From positions 1 to 40,388 of the forward strand of contig CALDPP010000045.1 in NCBI GenBank assembly GCA_937911345.1: DNA of 40,388 nucleotides. The letters run 5' to 3'. The translations under genes and the position numbers were made by a program. The DNA is from an uncultured euryarchaeote. GTDB taxonomy: Archaea > Thermoplasmatota > Poseidoniia > Poseidoniales > Poseidoniaceae. Under the pieces are notes generated by a model. The model was not told the DNA's origin, did not search any database, and saw nothing but the letters and a program-made list of their open reading frames with translations. Of the stretch, positions 3 to 25,450 are shown one piece after another. How positions within the stretch are numbered: position 1 is the stretch's first letter; every line of letters begins with the position of its first letter.

Positions 3-1070
3 ATAACGTCACTTACTGAGGTTGATGGCAGTCAAACCTTCGCCGAAATAGAAGCCGGTCTTGCCATGGCAATGCGCCATGAATATGACGATATGAAGGC
101 GAACTGGGTTGAATTCAATGGTGACACAGATGAAGAGATTAACGCTTGGTTAAACACTACCTTTGATGGTGATTACCGAGATGACGTAAATCGTCTCAAG
201 AATATGACACTTGATCCAATCTTTACCTCCGGTGACGACCGCTACTTCGATGTAATCAACCGTTCAACTCATGCAAACTATCACATTGACTTAACAAAAT
301 TGTATGACAACTACTACACTGTTGAAATGGTAAATGGAGATAGAACTAATGTCAACATTCAACTCCCAGATGACAACACTAACACAGGAGGAAATAACGG
401 CGGCACCGACAACAATGGTGGCTCCAACAATGGAGGCTCTAACAACGGTGGCGATACGACAACTCTTCCTGGCCCAACTGACAATAACACGGATGATGAT
501 GATTTGTTTGGCGATTTGCCAGATGACCAATTTATTGATGAAGCAGAGGCAGATGAATCAACACAAAATCAACTTAAACTAATTTTATTGATTATTGTTA
601 TTGCTCTACTATTCGGCCTGTATGTCATAAGTCGTACCAATGACAGTGATGAACTACTCAGTTCTCAAACTACGGTTGTGGATAAGATTTGGGATGACGA
701 TGAGATCAATGAATCGTTAAATGAAACCTCCTCAAAACCTAGCGAACCTACTGAAAGTGGTGAATCGATCGACATCAAGGATAAGGTGGCAAGCGCCATG
801 AAGTCGTCAGGACTTTCTGCTGTTCGTTTGTTTACTGCTATTGACCAAACCGATGATGGTTATGTTTCAAGAAGAGAGATTCGGACAGCAGTCAACACAT
901 TGCTCAAAGATTCGGTCAAGGTTTCAGATATTGACGCAATGCTAGAGACATTTGACACCAACGGAGATGGAGTAATCAGCCTAGATGAATTCCTCTCAGT
1001 GATGGAAAAACATCAGCCAGCACAATTCGTACCGGTATTACCTGACTTGAAACCACCAAAGAAGGACTAG
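3..1070 (+). CDS. Single-pass membrane protein with Asn/Gly-rich linker and C-terminal EF-hand pair (5' end outside window)
   Basis: Frame is open to the window edge upstream of the ATG at 66 (ITSLTEVDGSQTFAEIEAGLAM...). TM segment LKLILLIIVIALLFGLYVIS. EF-hand loops DQTDDGYVSRRE and DTNGDGVISLDE. Confidence 0.85.
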   Translation: MTSLTEVDGSQTFAEIEAGLAMAMRHEYDDMKANWVEFNGDTDEEINAWLNTTFDGDYRDDVNRLKNMTLDPIFTSGDDRYFDVINRSTHANYHIDLTKLYDNYYTVEMVNGDRTNVNIQLPDDNTNTGGNNGGTDNNGGSNNGGSNNGGDTTTLPGPTDNNTDDDDLFGDLPDDQFIDEAEADESTQNQLKLILLIIVIALLFGLYVISRTNDSDELLSSQTTVVDKIWDDDEINESLNETSSKPSEPTESGESIDIKDKVASAMKSSGLSAVRLFTAIDQTDDGYVSRREIRTAVNTLLKDSVKVSDIDAMLETFDTNGDGVISLDEFLSVMEKHQPAQFVPVLPDLKPPKKD

Positions 1071-11000: not shown

Positions 11001-11593
11001 ATGTTTGGGATACTGATGTTAATTTTGACAGTAATGGCGATGGAATAAAGGATAATGATGCAGACCTAGTAGGGGCTAGAGTTGAACACATTTTCAAACA
11101 AGAAGGTAAGATTACCATCAAAGCTATGGTTTGGGACGAGAATCCCGAGAAGCCCGGCTCCAAACAGTTAGTAGTCAATGTAGGTCCTGCAGACCGCACT
11201 ATTTTGGAAGACGCAGGAGCATTACTTGCGGGTGAAGATGCTAATCCTATTGCTCAGTTAGCACTTGCTTTGGTGGTGATTCTACTATTGGTACTGGTCG
11301 GCCGAAGAAGAAGTAACAATACTAAAGTAAAGAATTGGGAAAGAGATGAACTTGATGAGGCTTTTGACAGAGATGGAAAATTGAATTCCCATTCTCGTAA
11401 ACCTGCAGCACCACCACCCGGATTTGTTTTTGACCAAGCCTTGCAATCCCCGGCAAATGTTGTTAGTCCTGACGATATCTCAATCGATGAATTACTAGCC
11501 GCTCCAAAACTCCCAGAAAGTGGTCTGCCAGAGGGTTGGACTATGGAGCAGTGGAACTATTATGGCCATGAATGGTTGAAAGCCCAAGAGTAG
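8072..11593 (+). CDS. Large PKD-type surface protein with C-terminal TM and cytoplasmic tail
   Basis: N-terminal signal-like helix, repeated TDDDGA-type PKD repeats, TM (PIAQLALALVVILLLVLVG) followed by RRR, tail motif GLPEGWTMEQWNYYGHEWL. Confidence 0.85.
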   Translation: MRSIASRQIKAVSLIIIMLISTTLLYEPPKQFEQEDYFESSSKSTANAADVPVWRVGDKWKYAGTFDPTQLVIDSGVEANVGEINGDSITEVLSITEQNVAGIPTLVYTVRTSANFDKSGVSLDAFTGVAEIEFTQTEVLRVSDLASLRSDLDLFIEFTPSGISFLKQTVGDITISNTYTPPSENYDFPLRDGDRWTTTVTSTSQWSGSSDYITPFPPPTTDTNTSTYEVTNVGIPTNDFGQSINYGGCDNSYEVTTFNSDGDEAGYTWYCPEARNFAWKHTEDDVGLTIDFRLKEYMPKDSSGVNIYNDPGNREDCLIIETENDVTALDTPIDVWVNASSATGCLGSTSGVSLELRHEATGEIQSLTTAANGSAWTSIDIGNSEDGSTTSTDWASHGLVARTTSGNLVGAKTITLDDDLVVLDLFADAERAIITRNRDGELKQLNALSGYDVLPGDQLIVEVSIQNNGITNSIATDLRIYPPTGNSFNLPVPSLSTYEIYKTNFTWNVPENQAIGNIPISWEADPDELNTADANPNNDFAIIELFVGRLPTPVINHVVEQTKVEVFINASSSYDEDGGDVSCIFRIPYDDGSRSWAYIKVVSLSCQTNWTWTDDGNYPIEVTVIDEERDEVEQIMYANITNRAPLLEIRSMRNEARVEHPITLYAFGNDTDSEDPFPGVVDVFWPDAQCMEGYYTKTCTTTAPTEGYHTFKAIGVDDDLAQTEASIDILFTNIVPHSTIINLYENGEIIEADEQQIWQLDEDQIVTIKGQAEDSVDDIEQLSHTWWPDNRQNDLILFLTGRVTEFEMDWETSGLHTIRLDVTDDDGATSATNERWVNIRNVPPVVQPLDSVLPIAEGQSITITGNSTDTKSDLPTLVKCWDVDPGIDSDGMGGASDDCDIIGDIFTYAWNRSGSHTVVYHVTDDDGATTSEIVVVEVVNIPPIVRLNSVDCRAYENCILDARSTIDSLNDLDGLNYVWDTDVNFDSNGDGIKDNDADLVGARVEHIFKQEGKITIKAMVWDENPEKPGSKQLVVNVGPADRTILEDAGALLAGEDANPIAQLALALVVILLLVLVGRRRSNNTKVKNWERDELDEAFDRDGKLNSHSRKPAAPPPGFVFDQALQSPANVVSPDDISIDELLAAPKLPESGLPEGWTMEQWNYYGHEWLKAQE

Positions 11594-11638
11594 TCAAAAA
11601 ATCGAGTCTCTCAAGTAATAGAACTTCGTCGCCTAACC

Positions 11639-14600
11639 ATGTTTAAACAGCAATGTTTGGCTGTACTTTTGATTTCGATTCTGTTCATCGCACCATTGGC
11701 GAATTTGAATGATGTCGAGGAAACCGGGGAACTAATCGACACCACGATTAGTGAATCCGGCACATTGAACGGATGGCCTGATGTACCTACATGGCGAATT
11801 GGTGACAAGTATACTTACGAAACCCAATTCGATGTACAACAACTGATACAACAAGCTAACGTTGCTGCATCGCTAAATACGCTTACCGGTGACACGGTTT
11901 ACGAAATTACGGACATATTCTTCATTAATGTTGACAACATACAAACACTGGCTTACAAAATGGAAATTGAAGGTGATTTCAGCTCAGGAAATAGTGGAGC
12001 AACCTTAGAAGGAGTAAGTGGAAGGCTAGATATCGGCTATTCAGGGGAAGATATTGTTCGTGTTAGAGACATGGCGGTAATCAATTCTGAATTTACCCTC
12101 GATGTCAGATTCCTACCCTTCAACCTTGGATTCTTAGGACAGGATATTGCAGAAATCTCATTTGATACATCATACTCTCCACCAAAAGAAAAGTATGATT
12201 TCCCAATTCACACCGGTGATCAGTGGTACATGGACTTCTTTGCATCAACCTCAGTTAGCGGTGACTCAGACTACTTCGACCCATCCGAATTTGACACTGC
12301 TGGACCTGAGAACAACAGTTGGCAAATTACAGCAAACGGTGTGCCAACCGAAGACGGCAAGAACATTGCTTACAGCGGTTGTGCAGATTCTTACAAAGTC
12401 AATGAATGGAACCAAACTGGAGTTTCTCAAGGATTCAACTGGTATTGTCCTGATGTAAGATACAATTCGTGGATGAGAGTAAGCAATGCTGCTGGATTTA
12501 CTATTGATTGGTTACTGAAAAGATATGAGCCAGCAGGTTCAAGCGGCGTTAACCCAACTTCAAACCCGGGCACTAGAGACATTGAGATAGATATTGGATT
12601 GCAAGGTATTGCAACACTACCTAATGTGGAGCAAACAATTTTTGTCGATTACAGTGGCTCAAGCGGAACTCAACCAAATACCAATCTTCAACTAAGATAT
12701 GAGATGGATAGCACATTGCTTAATCCTACAACTGATGCCAACGGTCAAGCAACTGTGGTACTGAATTCCTCTGATGTGGTAGATACCACGCCTTCTAGCG
12801 ATGATTTCTCAAGTAATGGATTGATTATATGGGACCCACAATCTGAAATTATTGGCGCTGCAACGATTGTCATTGATTTATCACTCACCCCAGTTGATTT
12901 AATTGCTCAATCTGATGCAATTATCGTAACTAGAACAAGAGATGGTGTAGATTCAATCCTAACGAAATCAATCGGATATAATGCCTTACCTGGTGATTTA
13001 CTATCATTTTCAATTCCAACTCAAAATAGAGGATTGCTAGCATCCCCGGCAACAGAAATAGATGTCACCACCCCTAGCGGCACAGTGATTACTGAATCGT
13101 TGCCATCAATTCCATCGTATGGGGAAGCTAGGATAGATGTTGAATGGACAGTACCAGCCAATGAACCGATAGGTTATCAGAATCTGATGATTGAAGTTGA
13201 CCCGGATGAAATTGTCACTGAAGATTCAAACAGAACCAACAACATGGCAAATGTCGAGGTGTTCATTGGTAGAACCCCGACTGCTCAAGTAAACGTCACT
13301 GATGGTGTTTACACCTTCGAAAATGTCACCATTGATGCTTCTGGTAGTTTTGACGATGATGGCGGTAGTGTCACCTGTCGATTCTCGGTTGAAAAACAGC
13401 CTGGTCTAATTGACAATGTTGACAGCGAAGATTGTATCATTGAATATAATTGGAGCGATGGAAGGGCTTGGAATATACAGGTAATTGTTACCGATGATGA
13501 ACTTGATACTGACACGATTGACGTTACTGCAACTGTTATCAATCGTGCACCTTTCATGAACCTCTCAGTAATCGAAACCATTGACGTTAATCAATTCGTT
13601 TTCGCAGATGCAAGCGATAGCGGCGATGTCGATACAATATCTCCATCCGGACAAGAAGTAACCATTACATGGCCTGGGCTGAATTGTAATGAAGGAACGA
13701 CACAACCAACTTGTACATTCCTCGCTAGTGAAGAAGGGCCACTTACTGTAACCGCAGTTGCAGAAGATGATGACGGAGCAATTACTACCGTTACGACAAC
13801 AATTGATGTACTGAATGTAGCTCCATCATTGGCTCAGCCTGAATTGTGGAAAGCAGGTCAGAATCAATCCACTGATTCAATGGGTTACTGGAATTTGAAT
13901 GAGGATGAGACTGTTATTTTGCGAGCCGTAGCGGATGATACTCCTTTGGATAAAGACACTGTAATTATTGAATGGACGCCTTCAGATTTGGATGAAAATT
14001 GGACTATTACCACCGTTGGCCCATCATCACAGACCACTGTCTCTTGGCCTACATCAGGACTTCACACCCTCACTGTTGTAGCATATGATAACGACAATGT
14101 GAAGTCAGAGATTAGAACAGGAATAGTAAACATATCAAATGTTGCCCCTACTATCGCTACCCTAGGATCTACCCAACCGATTTTTGAAGATAATAATATT
14201 ACATTCACTGCTGAAGTAACAGACACTGCATCTGATTTTGATACTCTGGAAGTATGTTGGGACTTGGATTCATTGAGCGACGCTGATGAGGATGGGTTTG
14301 CCGACAATGACTGTGATATTAGCGGCTTTGAAATGACTGCATCATGGCCTACTAGTGGCGTAAGATGGATAACCGCCACTGTTACAGATGACGATGGTGC
14401 TAGTGACTCTACTAGCATAAACGTCAGTGTTATCAACACTGCACCAAGAGCCAAGATAACGAACAGTACAGATGTCTTAGCATTGAATGAAGGAGACAAT
14501 CTTACCTTATCAGGAATTACAACTACAGATACTGCATTTGACAAACTATCATTGATTTATGCTTGGGATAGCAATCATATAGATTCTGACTTAGATGGTG

Positions 14601-15349
14601 ATAATACCGGAGATGTCGACCACTATGGTGCTGAATGGGTCATAAGTGACTTGCCACCAGGAACATGGCTGATCACTATGACCGCTACTGATGATGATGG
14701 GGAAAGCAGTACTGCAACCATTGAAATTGTTGTAAAAGCAAAGCCAGCAGACGGCTTCCTAGAATCAATTACTAGTGCCGTTGGTGGAGTTGGAACATTG
14801 GTCATCGGAATACTCGGAATAGTGGTAATAGGTTTGGCTGCATTCTTACTGTTTACTAGAAATTCAGGTAATTCATCTGACAAATATTCTGACTTCAATT
14901 TACCAACCACTCCAGGCAGCCAGTTTAACGAGCCCATTGCAACTCCTGGTGCTGATGCTGGATTCGGTTTATATCAACAAGATACTGTTCAGTCAGATCC
15001 ATATGCAGCATACAACCCTCAACCACAGGCTGATCCATATGCAGCATATAACCCTCAACCGCAAGTCACCTCGCAACCGGACCCATACGCAACATACGAT
15101 GCTACAGCACAACCAGTCAACGAAATTCCGGTAAATCCACAACCTGCTCCAGTTACCAACCAAGGCCCACCGCTACCTGCAACAGGCTTGCCAGAGGGTT
15201 GGACTATGGAGCAATGGGGATATTATGGCGCCCAGTACTTAGCCGCACAAACGCCTAATATTTCTCAAAGTCAACCAACAATTACAGATACTACTTCACA
15301 ATCGGCATCTAATTCTCTGAACGATGTTTTAGATGATTTAGATTTGTGA
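11639..15349 (+). CDS. Large PKD-type surface protein, tandem paralogue of the preceding gene
   Basis: N-terminal domain alignable by eye to the upstream gene (VPTWRIGDKYTYETQFD vs VPVWRVGDKWKYAGTFD; YSPPKEKYDFPIHTGDQW vs YTPPSENYDFPLRDGDRW). PKD repeats, TM, shared tail motif GLPEGWTMEQWGYYG. Confidence 0.88.
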   Translation: MFKQQCLAVLLISILFIAPLANLNDVEETGELIDTTISESGTLNGWPDVPTWRIGDKYTYETQFDVQQLIQQANVAASLNTLTGDTVYEITDIFFINVDNIQTLAYKMEIEGDFSSGNSGATLEGVSGRLDIGYSGEDIVRVRDMAVINSEFTLDVRFLPFNLGFLGQDIAEISFDTSYSPPKEKYDFPIHTGDQWYMDFFASTSVSGDSDYFDPSEFDTAGPENNSWQITANGVPTEDGKNIAYSGCADSYKVNEWNQTGVSQGFNWYCPDVRYNSWMRVSNAAGFTIDWLLKRYEPAGSSGVNPTSNPGTRDIEIDIGLQGIATLPNVEQTIFVDYSGSSGTQPNTNLQLRYEMDSTLLNPTTDANGQATVVLNSSDVVDTTPSSDDFSSNGLIIWDPQSEIIGAATIVIDLSLTPVDLIAQSDAIIVTRTRDGVDSILTKSIGYNALPGDLLSFSIPTQNRGLLASPATEIDVTTPSGTVITESLPSIPSYGEARIDVEWTVPANEPIGYQNLMIEVDPDEIVTEDSNRTNNMANVEVFIGRTPTAQVNVTDGVYTFENVTIDASGSFDDDGGSVTCRFSVEKQPGLIDNVDSEDCIIEYNWSDGRAWNIQVIVTDDELDTDTIDVTATVINRAPFMNLSVIETIDVNQFVFADASDSGDVDTISPSGQEVTITWPGLNCNEGTTQPTCTFLASEEGPLTVTAVAEDDDGAITTVTTTIDVLNVAPSLAQPELWKAGQNQSTDSMGYWNLNEDETVILRAVADDTPLDKDTVIIEWTPSDLDENWTITTVGPSSQTTVSWPTSGLHTLTVVAYDNDNVKSEIRTGIVNISNVAPTIATLGSTQPIFEDNNITFTAEVTDTASDFDTLEVCWDLDSLSDADEDGFADNDCDISGFEMTASWPTSGVRWITATVTDDDGASDSTSINVSVINTAPRAKITNSTDVLALNEGDNLTLSGITTTDTAFDKLSLIYAWDSNHIDSDLDGDNTGDVDHYGAEWVISDLPPGTWLITMTATDDDGESSTATIEIVVKAKPADGFLESITSAVGGVGTLVIGILGIVVIGLAAFLLFTRNSGNSSDKYSDFNLPTTPGSQFNEPIATPGADAGFGLYQQDTVQSDPYAAYNPQPQADPYAAYNPQPQVTSQPDPYATYDATAQPVNEIPVNPQPAPVTNQGPPLPATGLPEGWTMEQWGYYGAQYLAAQTPNISQSQPTITDTTSQSASNSLNDVLDDLDL
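14996..15067 (+). repeat. Two-copy 36-bp in-frame tandem repeat (DPYAAYNPQPQ[A/V])
   Basis: gatccatatgcagcatacaaccctcaaccacaggct (14996-15031) followed by a near-identical copy (15032-15067). A third degenerate copy (DPYATYDATAQ) starts at 15080. Confidence 0.9.
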
Positions 15350-15358
15350 AGTGGAACT

Positions 15359-15940
15359 ATGGTTAGTCTATGGGGGTTTTTTGGATTACCTGACCCTGAT
15401 GGTGTACAAAAACCAAGTCAGCCCAACGTCAAACCGGTTGAAAGCCAACCAGACGTCGAAGAGAATAATCTCACTCAATCAACCCTAGATACTGAACAAA
15501 CTGAATCATCACAAGAACCTTTGAGCGATTTACCAAAAATTACGACTAATCACACACCAATCTCACCACCGCAAAATTGGCAAGGACCCGTTACTGCAGA
15601 TGGTGAGCCTTTTCATGACATGGGTGTGCAAACCCAAGTTCGTCGTTCATTCCCAACAAGAGCGCTGAGATATGTCTCCCCTGATGAGATGAAGCGGATA
15701 CCTACCAGAGGTATAGCTCAACGAATTGCTAATGGCGACACGGTAATTGTTGACCTACGAGGGTTAGTTCACATGGATTCACATCAAAACGCATGCCGAA
15801 GAGATTTGAAAATGATGACCGATGAAGTGGGTGTTGGTGTATTTGCTCTTGATCAAGAAGACAAGTTACTGATGATTCCGGGAACTGATGTGATGGTTGA
15901 TGTTGGGAATCATAATCTTGGCATTAATCCCCTAATGTAA
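15359..15940 (+). CDS. sepF: SepF-like cell division protein (DUF552 family)
   Basis: C-terminal TVIVDLRGLVHMDSHQNACRRDLKMMTDEVGVGVFALDQEDKLLMIPGTDVMVDV resembles the archaeal SepF fold. N-terminal MVSLWGFFGL is a plausible amphipathic membrane-targeting helix, followed by a disordered linker. Confidence 0.65.
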   Translation: MVSLWGFFGLPDPDGVQKPSQPNVKPVESQPDVEENNLTQSTLDTEQTESSQEPLSDLPKITTNHTPISPPQNWQGPVTADGEPFHDMGVQTQVRRSFPTRALRYVSPDEMKRIPTRGIAQRIANGDTVIVDLRGLVHMDSHQNACRRDLKMMTDEVGVGVFALDQEDKLLMIPGTDVMVDVGNHNLGINPLM

Positions 15941-20491: not shown

Positions 20492-23400
20492 CTACAATTC
20501 AACTACAGCACTGCAGATTGGACACTTAACCTTGGTCAATCGCAAATCCTTAATCGTGAACTTCGCTGAACATTCTGTGCAATTAGCCTCTTTCTGAGGT
20601 ACTGGAATATTTGGTAATGGCATGCCCGGAAGAATCGCATCAGCAGGCGGTGGCAAGTTAGGCAATGCGGGAACCGGTAATACTGCATCAACTGGTGCGG
20701 GAATTGCTTCAATTGGTTGGGGGATGTTGTTGATCATTTTTTCAGTCATCTCAACCAAATCTCTCTGCTGTTTACGTTTCATTCTGCGCTGAAGTCTTGA
20801 ATTTCCTTCCCCAGATTCAACTTTAGCAGTTAATGATTCTTGCAATGTTTCTTCCTCTTCATCGACTATCACGGCTTTTGGAGAGACTACAGATTGAACA
20901 ACCAATTCCTCTGCGTCCATATTAATCGCCATTGTTGGTTCATCATCACTTTCAATGTCTACCATAATTTCGATATCGTCTTCACTTGTAGCTACTAAGG
21001 AGGCCGACAAAATTTGCTCTTCAACTTCTTTATTCGTTCTGCGTAATGAAACAACAAGATACATGAATATCAATGAAATGATTAGTGCAACGAAAATCAG
21101 CATTACTGCTTTGGTGGTCGCATCACCGGGTAGTGGTTCTAGCAATGTCTCCAAGAATGATTTCTCCTCAGTATTAAGTTGCTCAACTTCTAACGATACG
21201 ATGGTTTTGAAAGAGAGTGTGCCACTACTTGATGAAACTATAATTATTGATTCTTCTTGTGTAGATGCGTAACCTGATGTGAATCCCTCGGCGATTAAGT
21301 TAGATAAAGCGAAATCATTGTTTTCTTCATCAATTATTCCATAACGTGTCATCGGCCCATATACATTAATTTCATCATATACCAGCGATATTTCTTCGCC
21401 GTAAGACGACATAACCAGATTAGTTACTCCTGCAGCTATGATATATTCCGGCTCGTCAGCAGACCAAGAATTGTCAGTCATAACATAGGCTATCTTTGAT
21501 TCTCCACCAAAACCTTCTACCCATGTAGCAGCGAGAACATCTCGATCATTCTTCTGATAAACCTCTAACTGCGCGTTGGAAGCATAATCACCAACAGAAT
21601 ATCGGAATGACCACGAAGGAAGCCATTCTTTTCCATGCGCATACATCAATCCAACACGTTCGATGCCTGTCACGTCATCTCTCAGTTCTTGATACAGAAT
21701 ATGCATGTTTTCTTCACCCAAGGCAATTGCTAATGAGTCGCCTTGTGTTGGTTTGATGTCAACATTAGCCAGGATGTAACTTGAACTCCAAGAACTCTGT
21801 ATCAATGGAGTGTCTGACATTAAAACAAAAATCGAGGTTATATCGTTGTACGAGCCACCCGTTGCAATATCTCTGTGATATCCTGCTAAGACAATTCTAT
21901 CTCCTTTCTTCGCCATATCAAGTCCCCAGTATCTGCCTTCTGATAGTTTGACAGCTTGCATATGAGTTTGCTTTTCGGTGGTTTCACCTGCGCTAGTAAT
22001 CGAGGTCATAGCGATGTGAGACAAGAAATAGCCTTGTTGATCTAAAACATTCTCTGTCCAAGCAGCATGTACTAAACCGTCATCTCGAAGTATCGCAGTC
22101 AATTCTCCTGCCCAAGAATCTGCCAGTTTTTCATCAGCTAATGTGGCCCATGCCCCAGATGATGATTCAGTAACTGTTCTAACGTGTAACTCTCCGTCTA
22201 CTGTAGTAAACAATAAACCGCTTTCCTCCATTCCAATAAAGTCGATTATCTCTTCACCTGAAAGCAAATTTAGTCGTACTGGTGAATCTAGCCCGACGTT
22301 ATTAGCAACCACTGTGAAACGTAGTTCGTTGAATTCTGATTCTACTCCGTCACCCGACATGGTCACTCTGAAATCTGTTCCTCCTAGAGTTGATAGGTTT
22401 CCGGGAATAATGAACCTAGCTTCATCGTAACCAGAACTTGAATCAGATCCAGGTATCACAGTTATTGTATCTTCACCGATTGGAGTCCAGCCTACATCTG
22501 CAATCTTAGAGAATAGTGTCAATGTCAAACCTGCTGCATCATTTTGGCCCAAGTTGTCGACTCGAACAATTACTGTATACTGTTCGCCAGGAATTGGAAT
22601 TAGAGGAAGTGTTTGGTAAGCCCCTTGCATGAAACGTAGGGTGGGTTCCACCGGACGTTCCTCGACTTCGAATGAGAAACTGTAAGAATTGTCTTCTGGG
22701 TTTGGATCATCATAATTCATTGAAGGATCTATCGACAAAGTCACGCTATGCGTCCCAACTTCTGTCGCCCACCAATAAAGTGTAATCTCTGCCTCGTCGC
22801 CGTCATCTAGGTTTGAGATGGTGATGTCCGAGGGATAAACATCAGAATTGTCCCCAGGGGCATTAAGTTTGATGAAAACATCATCTGCATCTAAATCGCC
22901 GACATTTTCAATCGTGAATTTTATTGTTAGAATCGAACCGGCTACTGCAGATTGTACTGGCAATCCTACTTCGTCAAGAACCTCCACAACGCCAGTAAAG
23001 ACAAAGTCTGGTGCAGCGGGCATATTGTCAACATCAATAGTACGTCGAATGTCGTCTGTTTTCACGCCAGATTCATTTACCATACGGAAACTCAACCGAG
23101 TCGAACCATCAGACACTGTGGTGGAGTCCCAGTTAAAATTCCAGTCTTGACTACCGACTTCTAATTCGGGTAAATCTGTGGCAAATTCCCATGCTCCATT
23201 ATCCACTTTGTACTCTATGAAATCATGTTGGACGCCATCAACAGTACCACTAAATTCAACCATTCCACTAACACTCTGTCCAACTGTTGGGCTGGCAATC
23301 GTAACTTTCATTCTAGCCAGATTTATGACCCTGAAATCTATGTTTGATTCGGATTGAGTTGCTGTATCATACAATTTAACGCTGACAATTACGTATTCCT

Positions 23401-25450
23401 CGTCAGCCTGTATCCAGTCTTCTAAGACATTGACGTTAAGATTCCAATTATCAATATCTCCACCCGCTATCGTCCATGGTTTCAATTCACGTTCAGTTCC
23501 AGATTCTAGGAATTGTGCTATCCGTACTTGGACCTGATCGAATTGTTCACCCGGCGGGAAATCGGTAGTGCCTGAAATCGTCGCAGTATTGCCTTCCAGC
23601 CACCACGTATCGTTTGATGGTTGGCTAATTGATACGAAATCGCCAGAACCGTTACCACTTGGTGGAGGGTTTACTACTCCTGTATCCTCCAATGGAGTAC
23701 AGGGTTGGTCAAGGGCAAAATCAATAGCACAAGATGCATCAATTAACCCGAAACCCCATTTCTCATGCCATCTATCTGAAATTGTATTTGCCGGCTTATC
23801 TCTGATTTCTGATGAATTTCTGATAACATCCATAACTTCGAAAGCATCCAAAGAAGGGGCTGCCTCTCTAACTAATGCGACAATGCCCGAGGCAATCGGA
23901 GTTGCCATACTTGTACCGTCTTTTTCATCGTAATCCGAATCTGCCTCAGGTCTTGGAGCGCCGGGGAAAGAAGTCCCAGTTGCCGCAGTGGCGGATATTA
24001 TGTTGGAGCCGTAAGACGAAATATCTGGTTTGAGTTCATCCCACTCATTATCGTCTCCATCATCGAGTCTTGGTCCATAATTGGTAAAACTCGAGATGCC
24101 ATCATTGGTTCTGTTCGTTGTGCCAAAATCTGAAGCTGATGAAACTGCAAAGCCCATGTCTGCACTTGCTGGAGAAGGCACTCTCTTCGAGCCATCATTG
24201 CCCATGGCAATTACACAAACAATATCTGCACTTTCGGTGGCGTTGTTGATAAGTCGAGCTTCTCCACCGGTCCCATTGTCACCCTCATCTCCAGGATTTA
24301 ACGGTGAAGAGACTGAGCCGAATGACATGGATCCAATTTGAATACCTCTACTAGAGGAATTGTGTCCCCAATCTGTGTCAGCGTTATTTATCATCCATTG
24401 AATTCCACTGATTGAGTACTGTGAGTTGGTTCCACCCGCATCTGTTAGCACCTTAATGTCAACAAGATAAGCCCCCGGTGCTGTACCCATGTGGACTCTA
24501 GATGAATCTCCGGTTCCAAGCGCCGAACCTGCTACGTGTGTGCCGTGACCTTGTCCGTCATCCGGGTCTTGAGAACCGTCTGCATTTGCTGCAGCAGATG
24601 TGGCATCATATCCAGCAACCCACTTGTGATCATCATAAGACAGCGGGTTGGTGTCTGGCGCGTCATTTTGGTCGTCGAAATCGTTTAGAGAACGATGCTC
24701 ATTGTCAACCCCTGTATCCAAAATAGCAATAACAACACCATCGCCGGTGTATCCACGCTCGTATGCAGTTTCAGAATAAACCTGTGATGGCATAGCTCGA
24801 GTAGCTTTTCCGGCAACGTCGTTAGATGGAACCATGACATTTTGCATCTCTATGACTACCACGCCGTTTAGATGATAGATATCCATCAAAGCACTAACTG
24901 GGACCTTATCGACAACAATTGAATCAATACTTTCCGGTTGATCAAACCAAGCACCTGATTCTACTCCCATCCAACCGTGAAGATTGAGTACTTCTTGCAA
25001 AGCATCGACCTCAGTTTCAGTTGGATGCCAAGCATAGTCGACTACGATTGCGACTGTTTTCTTACCATCCTCGCCTACAACTGCAGTTGGAGAGATTGAA
25101 TCAAAACCTGCAATTACTCTTTGAAGACGATCATCCATGCCGTTCCAATCTAAATCTGGACCATAGGCAAGCCACCAACCGTCTTTTTCTGATGCAGGCA
25201 TATCTCCTCTTAAATCAAGCCTAAGAGGTCTTTCGCACAATTCCTCACCACACATCAACGGTGGAAGACCGTCGACTAAAATTGGCTCTCCGTGAGTGAT
25301 TGGGGCCACAGCATTACGATTTTCATCGTTGTTTGGAGCCAATGCTGATGCGGCAGAACTGGTACCAGCAATTAAGAAAATCAAGGCGATAAAAATCGCT
25401 GAGCGGCGTAAACCTGGTGTAGAACTCATTGAAATAAACCCCTTCGACAT
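20492..25450 (-). CDS. Giant membrane-anchored subtilisin-like (S8) protease with CARDB-like repeats and C-terminal zinc ribbon
   Basis: Catalytic triad VAILDTGVD, GHGTHVAGS, GTSMATPIASG. TM (AVMLIFVALIISLIFMYLVVSL). C-terminal CTECSAKF...VKCPICSAVVEL. Confidence 0.93.
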   Translation of the reverse strand: MSKGFISMSSTPGLRRSAIFIALIFLIAGTSSAASALAPNNDENRNAVAPITHGEPILVDGLPPLMCGEELCERPLRLDLRGDMPASEKDGWWLAYGPDLDWNGMDDRLQRVIAGFDSISPTAVVGEDGKKTVAIVVDYAWHPTETEVDALQEVLNLHGWMGVESGAWFDQPESIDSIVVDKVPVSALMDIYHLNGVVVIEMQNVMVPSNDVAGKATRAMPSQVYSETAYERGYTGDGVVIAILDTGVDNEHRSLNDFDDQNDAPDTNPLSYDDHKWVAGYDATSAAANADGSQDPDDGQGHGTHVAGSALGTGDSSRVHMGTAPGAYLVDIKVLTDAGGTNSQYSISGIQWMINNADTDWGHNSSSRGIQIGSMSFGSVSSPLNPGDEGDNGTGGEARLINNATESADIVCVIAMGNDGSKRVPSPASADMGFAVSSASDFGTTNRTNDGISSFTNYGPRLDDGDDNEWDELKPDISSYGSNIISATAATGTSFPGAPRPEADSDYDEKDGTSMATPIASGIVALVREAAPSLDAFEVMDVIRNSSEIRDKPANTISDRWHEKWGFGLIDASCAIDFALDQPCTPLEDTGVVNPPPSGNGSGDFVSISQPSNDTWWLEGNTATISGTTDFPPGEQFDQVQVRIAQFLESGTERELKPWTIAGGDIDNWNLNVNVLEDWIQADEEYVIVSVKLYDTATQSESNIDFRVINLARMKVTIASPTVGQSVSGMVEFSGTVDGVQHDFIEYKVDNGAWEFATDLPELEVGSQDWNFNWDSTTVSDGSTRLSFRMVNESGVKTDDIRRTIDVDNMPAAPDFVFTGVVEVLDEVGLPVQSAVAGSILTIKFTIENVGDLDADDVFIKLNAPGDNSDVYPSDITISNLDDGDEAEITLYWWATEVGTHSVTLSIDPSMNYDDPNPEDNSYSFSFEVEERPVEPTLRFMQGAYQTLPLIPIPGEQYTVIVRVDNLGQNDAAGLTLTLFSKIADVGWTPIGEDTITVIPGSDSSSGYDEARFIIPGNLSTLGGTDFRVTMSGDGVESEFNELRFTVVANNVGLDSPVRLNLLSGEEIIDFIGMEESGLLFTTVDGELHVRTVTESSSGAWATLADEKLADSWAGELTAILRDDGLVHAAWTENVLDQQGYFLSHIAMTSITSAGETTEKQTHMQAVKLSEGRYWGLDMAKKGDRIVLAGYHRDIATGGSYNDITSIFVLMSDTPLIQSSWSSSYILANVDIKPTQGDSLAIALGEENMHILYQELRDDVTGIERVGLMYAHGKEWLPSWSFRYSVGDYASNAQLEVYQKNDRDVLAATWVEGFGGESKIAYVMTDNSWSADEPEYIIAAGVTNLVMSSYGEEISLVYDEINVYGPMTRYGIIDEENNDFALSNLIAEGFTSGYASTQEESIIIVSSSSGTLSFKTIVSLEVEQLNTEEKSFLETLLEPLPGDATTKAVMLIFVALIISLIFMYLVVSLRRTNKEVEEQILSASLVATSEDDIEIMVDIESDDEPTMAINMDAEELVVQSVVSPKAVIVDEEEETLQESLTAKVESGEGNSRLQRRMKRKQQRDLVEMTEKMINNIPQPIEAIPAPVDAVLPVPALPNLPPPADAILPGMPLPNIPVPQKEANCTECSAKFTIKDLRLTKVKCPICSAVVEL

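Follow-up and report, generated by a model that had tools for sequence, protein, structure and literature searches.

What has kept a short stretch of two otherwise diverged surface proteins so alike, and what is that stretch for? This question is raised by two giant proteins, PKD1 and PKD2, encoded in tandem in the window, i.e., the whole stretch of 40,388 nt that was analyzed here. Both share one layout, consisting of a signal-peptide-like N-terminus, PKD/CARDB domains, a single transmembrane (TM) segment, a basic stretch, a Pro/Gln/Ala-rich linker and the motif, and they are paralogous over their full length (Table 1). The preliminary description of this locus had noted a near-identical motif in the two tails and had proposed strong selection or gene conversion at a short docking site. 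The motif itself is confirmed, each protein having one TM followed by it. The identity given as about 26 nt (at about 11528 and 15188) proved to be an exact one of 25 nt, TGCCAGAGGGTTGGACTATGGAGCA, which occurs exactly twice in the window (11526–11550 and 15189–15213; zero copies expected from shuffles) and reads in frame as GLPEGWTMEQWNYYGHEWL in PKD1 (nt 11522–11578) and GLPEGWTMEQWGYYGAQYL in PKD2 (nt 15185–15241). The form common to both proteins is P-x-[LIV]-P-x2-GLPEGWTMEQWxYYGxx[WY]L. Thus, both indeed carry the motif, but it is not specific to this pair (see below), and conservation reaches further upstream, over the P-x-[LIV]-P. It lies 18–20 aa before the C-terminus in most proteins and 49 aa before it in PKD2. 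A conserved acidic LLDDLD[FL] closes the PKD2 orthologues (window 15320–15346), and LDDL-like ends are also found on other giant surface proteins of a complete relative, G002.

Table 1. Coordinates of the tandem PKD genes, their tail elements and the adjoining gene in the window.
Feature	Position	Strand	Basis and remarks
PKD1, giant type I surface protein, 1173 aa	8072..11593	+	ORF; Pfam PKD_4, PKD, CARDB; kept in relatives
PKD1 transmembrane segment, then basic stop-transfer RRR	11249..11302	+	Hydropathy, sequence
PKD1 cytosolic linker, weakly conserved	11303..11503	+	Orthologue identity 0.30 in linker vs 0.69 in motif
Tag copy 1, PKLPES-GLPEGWTMEQWNYYGHEWL	11504..11578	+	Motif, sequence; AF2-predicted helix M-to-Q after T N-cap
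PKD2, tandem paralogue, 1236 aa, architecture as PKD1	11639..15349	+	ORF; full-length 32% identity to PKD1
PKD2 transmembrane segment	14786..14854	+	Hydropathy, sequence
PKD2 cytosolic Pro/Gln/Ala-rich linker, DPYAAYNPQ repeats	14855..15166	+	Sequence
Tag copy 2, PPLPAT-GLPEGWTMEQWGYYGAQYL	15167..15241	+	Motif, sequence
PKD2-specific C-terminal extension, end VLDDLDL (orthologues LDDLDF/L)	15242..15346	+	Orthologue comparison
SepF homologue, 193 aa, directly 3' of PKD2	15359..15940	+	AF2 core pLDDT about 90; Foldseek

Selection on the peptide versus exchange between the genes

For 158 pooled orthologue pairs, which are not independent of one another, dN/dS was lowest for the motif (0.027), followed by the ectodomain (0.055) and the linker (0.131), values that are to be read as relative only because dS is saturated; saturation was equal in the three regions (pS of 0.74, 0.72 and 0.71, respectively). 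In six orthologue families, identity amounted to 69–80% in the motif, 40–61% in the ectodomain and 28–43% in the linker. As judged from these substitution patterns, they show selection to act on the tag peptide and not on the DNA. The lowest ratio in the motif (about 0.03 against 0.13 in the linker), together with the occurrence of the peptide on membrane-protein tails far beyond this pair, supports the earlier proposal that a short docking motif is under strong selection.

Recent duplication of the tandem PKD genes, or conversion of one by the other, would also give nucleotide identity, and the exact run speaks for it (P = 0.007 for a run of at least 25 identical nt in the window pair under codon sampling). 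Against it, the 22 loci with both paralogues had 129 codon matches at identical residues versus 128.4 expected, and motif identity between PKD1 and PKD2 was 66.5% within the same genome as well as between genomes, lower than among orthologues. Moreover, the exact nucleotide identity recurred in none of the related genomes, synonymous divergence in the motif was saturated as elsewhere, and the peptide is also present on unrelated proteins elsewhere in the genome. Within the window pair, 11 residues are identical and 9 of 16 codons are shared versus 5.9 expected (P = 0.08); the 25-nt identity can thus be explained by the 11 identical residues plus chance codon agreement, and would represent a chance extreme (P about 0.01) or at most a local event. 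As a general explanation, duplication or conversion is already refuted; at most, a local event may have occurred in this one genome, and we regard it as extremely improbable that such an exchange underlies the likeness of the two tails.

Distribution and carriers of the tag

The core of the motif, hereafter the GW-EQW tag, comprises about 25 aa and reads P-x-[LIV]-P-x2-G-L-P-x-G-W-[TS]-M-[ED]-Q-W-x-[YH]-Y-G-x2-[WY]-L, with its invariance being somewhat overstated because the loci were retrieved by pattern. A profile search of the window's own genome gave seven tagged proteins at E ≤ 1e-7 and no further match at E ≤ 10; all seven ORFs, one of which (C192) has an incomplete N-terminus, combine an ectodomain-like part, a TM, a linker and the motif 18–49 aa from the end. 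Proteome-wide counts were taken from the complete relative G002 with naive ORF calls (g1226/g1227 there being two overlapping frames) and revealed exactly 10 tagged proteins at E ≤ 2.2e-11, followed by the next match at an E of about 0.1. None of these 7 and 10 proteins is soluble, every one having an upstream TM. The motif search beyond the pair, as suggested in the preliminary description, thus found the motif elsewhere, always in membrane-protein tails and never in soluble proteins.

The carriers belong to at least 12 unrelated ectodomain families, including subtilase, arylsulfotransferase, propeller, PKD and TSP3. Those of G002 are the PKD pair, a subtilase, a beta-propeller-like protein, TSP3 and NPCBM/CARDB proteins and others, all with unrelated ectodomains and among them a choice-of-anchor-V-like one with CxxCH; further carriers in other genomes are an arylsulfotransferase family and a type II protein with a SAP domain. 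No recurrent gene neighbor was found beside the 10 tagged genes of G002.

On the scale of the order Poseidoniales (Marine Group II [MGII] archaea), reported to outnumber all other archaea in the plankton of surface waters and without a cultured member (PMC6461757), the tag was present in 292 of 293 genomes and in 22/22 genera, including all 35 high-quality genomes. Genomes of family f1 contain 5–13 copies and those of family f2 usually 1–7, with none in one incomplete f2 genome. The full-length tag was absent from about 210 other genomes of the phylum, which gave one partial match (E = 0.006), and a broader 25-row profile, applied to 73 of those genomes (6 of them from the sister order in the same class), returned partial matches only, at E-values of 0.01–0.1. 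Going by these E-values, partial matches outside Poseidoniales appear to be about at chance level. Named matches in GTDB r220, among the best 80 listed, were MGII/Poseidoniales or unclassified marine Euryarchaeota MAGs, on which the assignment of the searched order to Poseidoniales is in part based. Across the genomes sampled, the tag is specific to the order Poseidoniales. Viral mimicry was considered and rejected, as viral contigs gave no confirmed match and phage records a chance match only. An order-wide cytosolic tag defines a set of proteins (extracellular proteases, sulfotransferase-like enzymes, adhesins) that probably act together.

Orientation and predicted structure

All 147 unique C-terminal copies have a TM 40–307 aa upstream (median linker 67 aa), and the 12 aa following this TM contain 2.8 Lys/Arg on average, i.e., the arrangement is positive-inside. 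In type II proteins of family f2 (L097, L100, L131 and L277), the order is SAP domain (a Pfam match above cut-off), tag, TM and ectodomain, so that the tag is N-terminal here; as the TM is inverted as well, the tag is therefore predicted to be cytosolic at either end. Based on hydropathy, charge rules and the type II case, the tag is thus predicted to face the cytosol always. The f1 orthologue of the type II protein (G002 g61, 54552–56699) has a SAP-like N-terminus without the tag, and the f2 PKD protein upstream of SepF is devoid of it in G001, G003, G005 and G017 and tagged in G007. As orthologues differ in this manner, the tag is gained and lost independently of the ectodomain. As a separate point, the cytosolic N-terminal SAP portion of the type II protein and of g61 might be a nucleoid-to-membrane tether.

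For the window peptide (39-aa input, 16-row alignment of the window peptide and 15 homologues), AF2 predicted a helix (H24-38, pLDDT 85–89) that begins just after the Thr. One helix face, formed by M7, W10, Y13, G14, W17 and L18, reached a mean of 3.9 bits per column versus 2.5 on the back, at a hydrophobic moment of 0.44 and a net charge of about −1.6. The model gives an N-capped amphipathic helix whose conserved side is the aromatic/Gly face.

Two domain assignments were tried and rejected. A WW domain has a three-stranded beta fold with two spaced Trp; only the first 9–11 residues of the tag are WW-like (PF00397), and AF2 predicts a helix. A UBA domain was likewise discarded, as the tag peptides had no Pfam match and a separate GY module (see below) alone is weakly UBA-like.

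Relation to known signals

No match to the tag was found in Pfam, NCBIfam, the PDB or open-access papers, nor the string GWTMEQW in open-access papers, and term searches within MGII genome papers brought up no such tag. Like the tag, the PGF-CTERM, PEP-CTERM and LPXTG signals (archaeosortase, exosortase, sortase) are short, lineage-specific C-terminal elements of many unrelated surface proteins. CTERM/sortase signals, however, carry their signature motif outside, ahead of the TM, and end in the basic cluster. The tagged proteins of Poseidoniales instead run from the TM through the basic cluster and a linker of 40–307 aa to the cytosolic motif; the motif followed the TM and basic stretch in 147/147 copies, rather than lying outside just before a C-terminal TM. 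NCBIfam CTERM models did not match the tails of the two window PKD proteins. Some tagged ectodomains resemble the choice-of-anchor T/V families and MYXO-CTERM MtsC, below the NCBIfam cut-offs.

Eukaryotic tail motifs (YxxPhi, NPxY, dileucine; integrin tails) are likewise short and lie in the disordered cytosolic tails of single-pass proteins that are not related to one another, with a single adaptor expected, as is proposed here for the tag; there is no homology, however, and the tag is longer, more invariant, helical and archaeal. SHOCT (PF09851) is a short C-terminal helical element as well and has, by eye, a similar G-x-T-x-E-x-aromatic register, but only one helix is predicted over our motif, and neither SHOCT nor any other Pfam family matched two tag peptides at E ≤ 10. 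Peptide ligands of GYF/WW domains (PPGW, PPLP) share the Pro-rich lead-in followed by P-x-G-W, whereas the conserved unit of the tag runs on into the helix; in G002 and G000, WW readers were not found at E ≤ 1 and GYF readers not above cut-off.

A probable cytosolic docking tag and its alternatives

The tag is common to unrelated, mostly single-pass surface proteins and sits at the end of a fast-evolving linker. It has the attributes of a cytosolic short linear docking motif, namely a conserved peptide on a poorly conserved linker, the cytosolic side, unrelated carriers, and gain and loss on orthologues. We consider it probable that the GW-EQW tag is an order-specific module that serves docking or sorting on the cytosolic side and is read by one putative receptor common to its carriers. 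The T/S residue would N-cap the amphipathic helix, PxP-GLP-GW would form a rigid lead-in to it, and the invariant W-Y-G-[WY]-L face would fit into a groove on a single conserved receptor, located either in the cytosol or in the membrane and then facing the cytosol. Docking may then sort or cluster varied ectodomains (proteases, sulfotransferase, adhesins) in one shared place, or retain them there, such that the tag would play on the inner side of the membrane the part that CTERM/sortase signals play on the outer side. The sorting of archaeal surface proteins from the cytosol would then be open to testing, with the tag serving as a bait peptide of about 25 aa in the search for its receptor.

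The aromatic amphipathic helices might instead bind each other and co-cluster surface proteins without a separate receptor. The small (Gly14) and aromatic positions on the conserved face are typical of helix packing, f1 genomes encode several different tagged proteins, and a self-associating helix would give equal conservation. Some f2 genomes (G001 and G028, 89–94% complete), however, have a single tagged protein, so that hetero-clustering would be purposeless there, and the invariant Q9 and the PxP-GLP lead-in exceed the needs of a self-packing helix; we consider homotypic assembly rather unlikely.

According to another possibility, the tag would bring surface proteins to the SepF/FtsZ division machinery, with SepF as the receptor. 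SepF is the archaeal FtsZ anchor, and the archaeal sepF gene is reported to have a variable context (PMC8178401, PMC8187382). The core fold of the homologue encoded next to PKD2 has 3zig/3zie (archaeal SepF-like) as best PDB hits in Foldseek, followed by 3zii (prob 1.00, TMt 0.69–0.79); Pfam SepF matched 2 of 16 homologues (best E = 0.0096) and not the window copy. SepF was found in all 8 genomes tested and comes right after PKD2 in 50/50 loci that hold it, with the f2 homologues also following a PKD protein, and an FtsZ-like GGGTGTG protein was detected in G002 (g927), by regex only. The N-terminus of this divergent SepF homologue, NLWQFFGLPDPEG, may form a membrane-targeting helix. Constant adjacency and the role of SepF as FtsZ anchor would be in line with division-site docking. 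Yet, in the four f2 genomes with an untagged SepF-linked PKD protein, other proteins are tagged, which makes SepF unlikely as a universal receptor; in addition, no other tagged gene of G002 lies near SepF, and the f1-specific SepF block (W.GPVTPDGEPFHDLG) is missing in G007, whose PKD2 is tagged. Division-site docking with SepF as the receptor is thus distinctly improbable.

It is very unlikely that the tail folds back onto the inner leaflet through its Trp/Tyr residues: the hydrophobic moment and aromatic face would suit a membrane-binding helix, but the negative net charge is unfavorable for acidic archaeal lipids, and lipid binding does not require W, Q, Y and G to be strictly identical. 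The conserved aromatic/Gly face and the net charge are thus more in keeping with docking than with lipid binding. We likewise give very little chance to a degron, a signal for turnover or quality control that an AAA+ protease of the cytosol or membrane would recognize, to which the position at the end of a flexible tail and the LonB- and thermosome-like genes adjoining two tagged genes might point; such neighbors are not recurrent, and the tag is not a free-end degron because PKD2 carries it internally and type II proteins near their N-terminus.

Other tail modules

About 70 proteins of G002 have a signal peptide, a single TM and a tail, with recurrent tail types. A second, order-wide module, QQLxAQGYPxExARxYAQQY (GYPxExARxYAQQY; e.g., L321, L320, L322), was seen in 24/24 sampled genomes on carriers of about 1100–2290 aa; it is weakly UBA-like (Pfam E = 2e-4) and has no profile similarity to the tag. 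A third, FPxWxxEEIxxYxDQGWSxExLxxW (L300, L315, L149), was present in 15 of 24 genomes and aligns with the tag over 13 columns (hhalign prob 57%). Both also form cytosolic ends of giant surface proteins, but their sequences and carriers differ from those of the tag. About ten other surface tails end in a Trp-rich DUF2510- or WW-like mini-domain (G002 g293, g542, g918, g1488, g1554 and others), without a Pfam WW match in G002. On the minus strand of the window (20492–25450), a giant surface subtilase (Peptidase_S8) is encoded whose cytosolic tail (CTECSAKF...CPICSAVVEL) resembles a zinc ribbon.

Of the strictly conserved tail elements found here, the GW-EQW tag has the widest distribution; it may be a single word in a larger code of tails. 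We tentatively entertain, as a possibility with the odds rather against it, that Poseidoniales use an inside-membrane sorting code in which giant surface proteins would bear one out of a small number of conserved tail modules, each with its own cytosolic receptor, and extracellular enzymes and adhesins would thereby be organized from the cytosol; equally tentatively, its modules would comprise the GW-EQW tag, the GY/UBA-like, DQGWS and W-rich modules, the zinc ribbon and the acidic LDDL end. If true, prokaryotic surfaces would here be patterned in a way for which no precedent has been described.

At the start of the window (3–1070), a membrane protein is encoded whose cytosolic C-terminal tail looks like an EF-hand pair (DQTDDGYVSRREI, DTNGDGVISLDEF).
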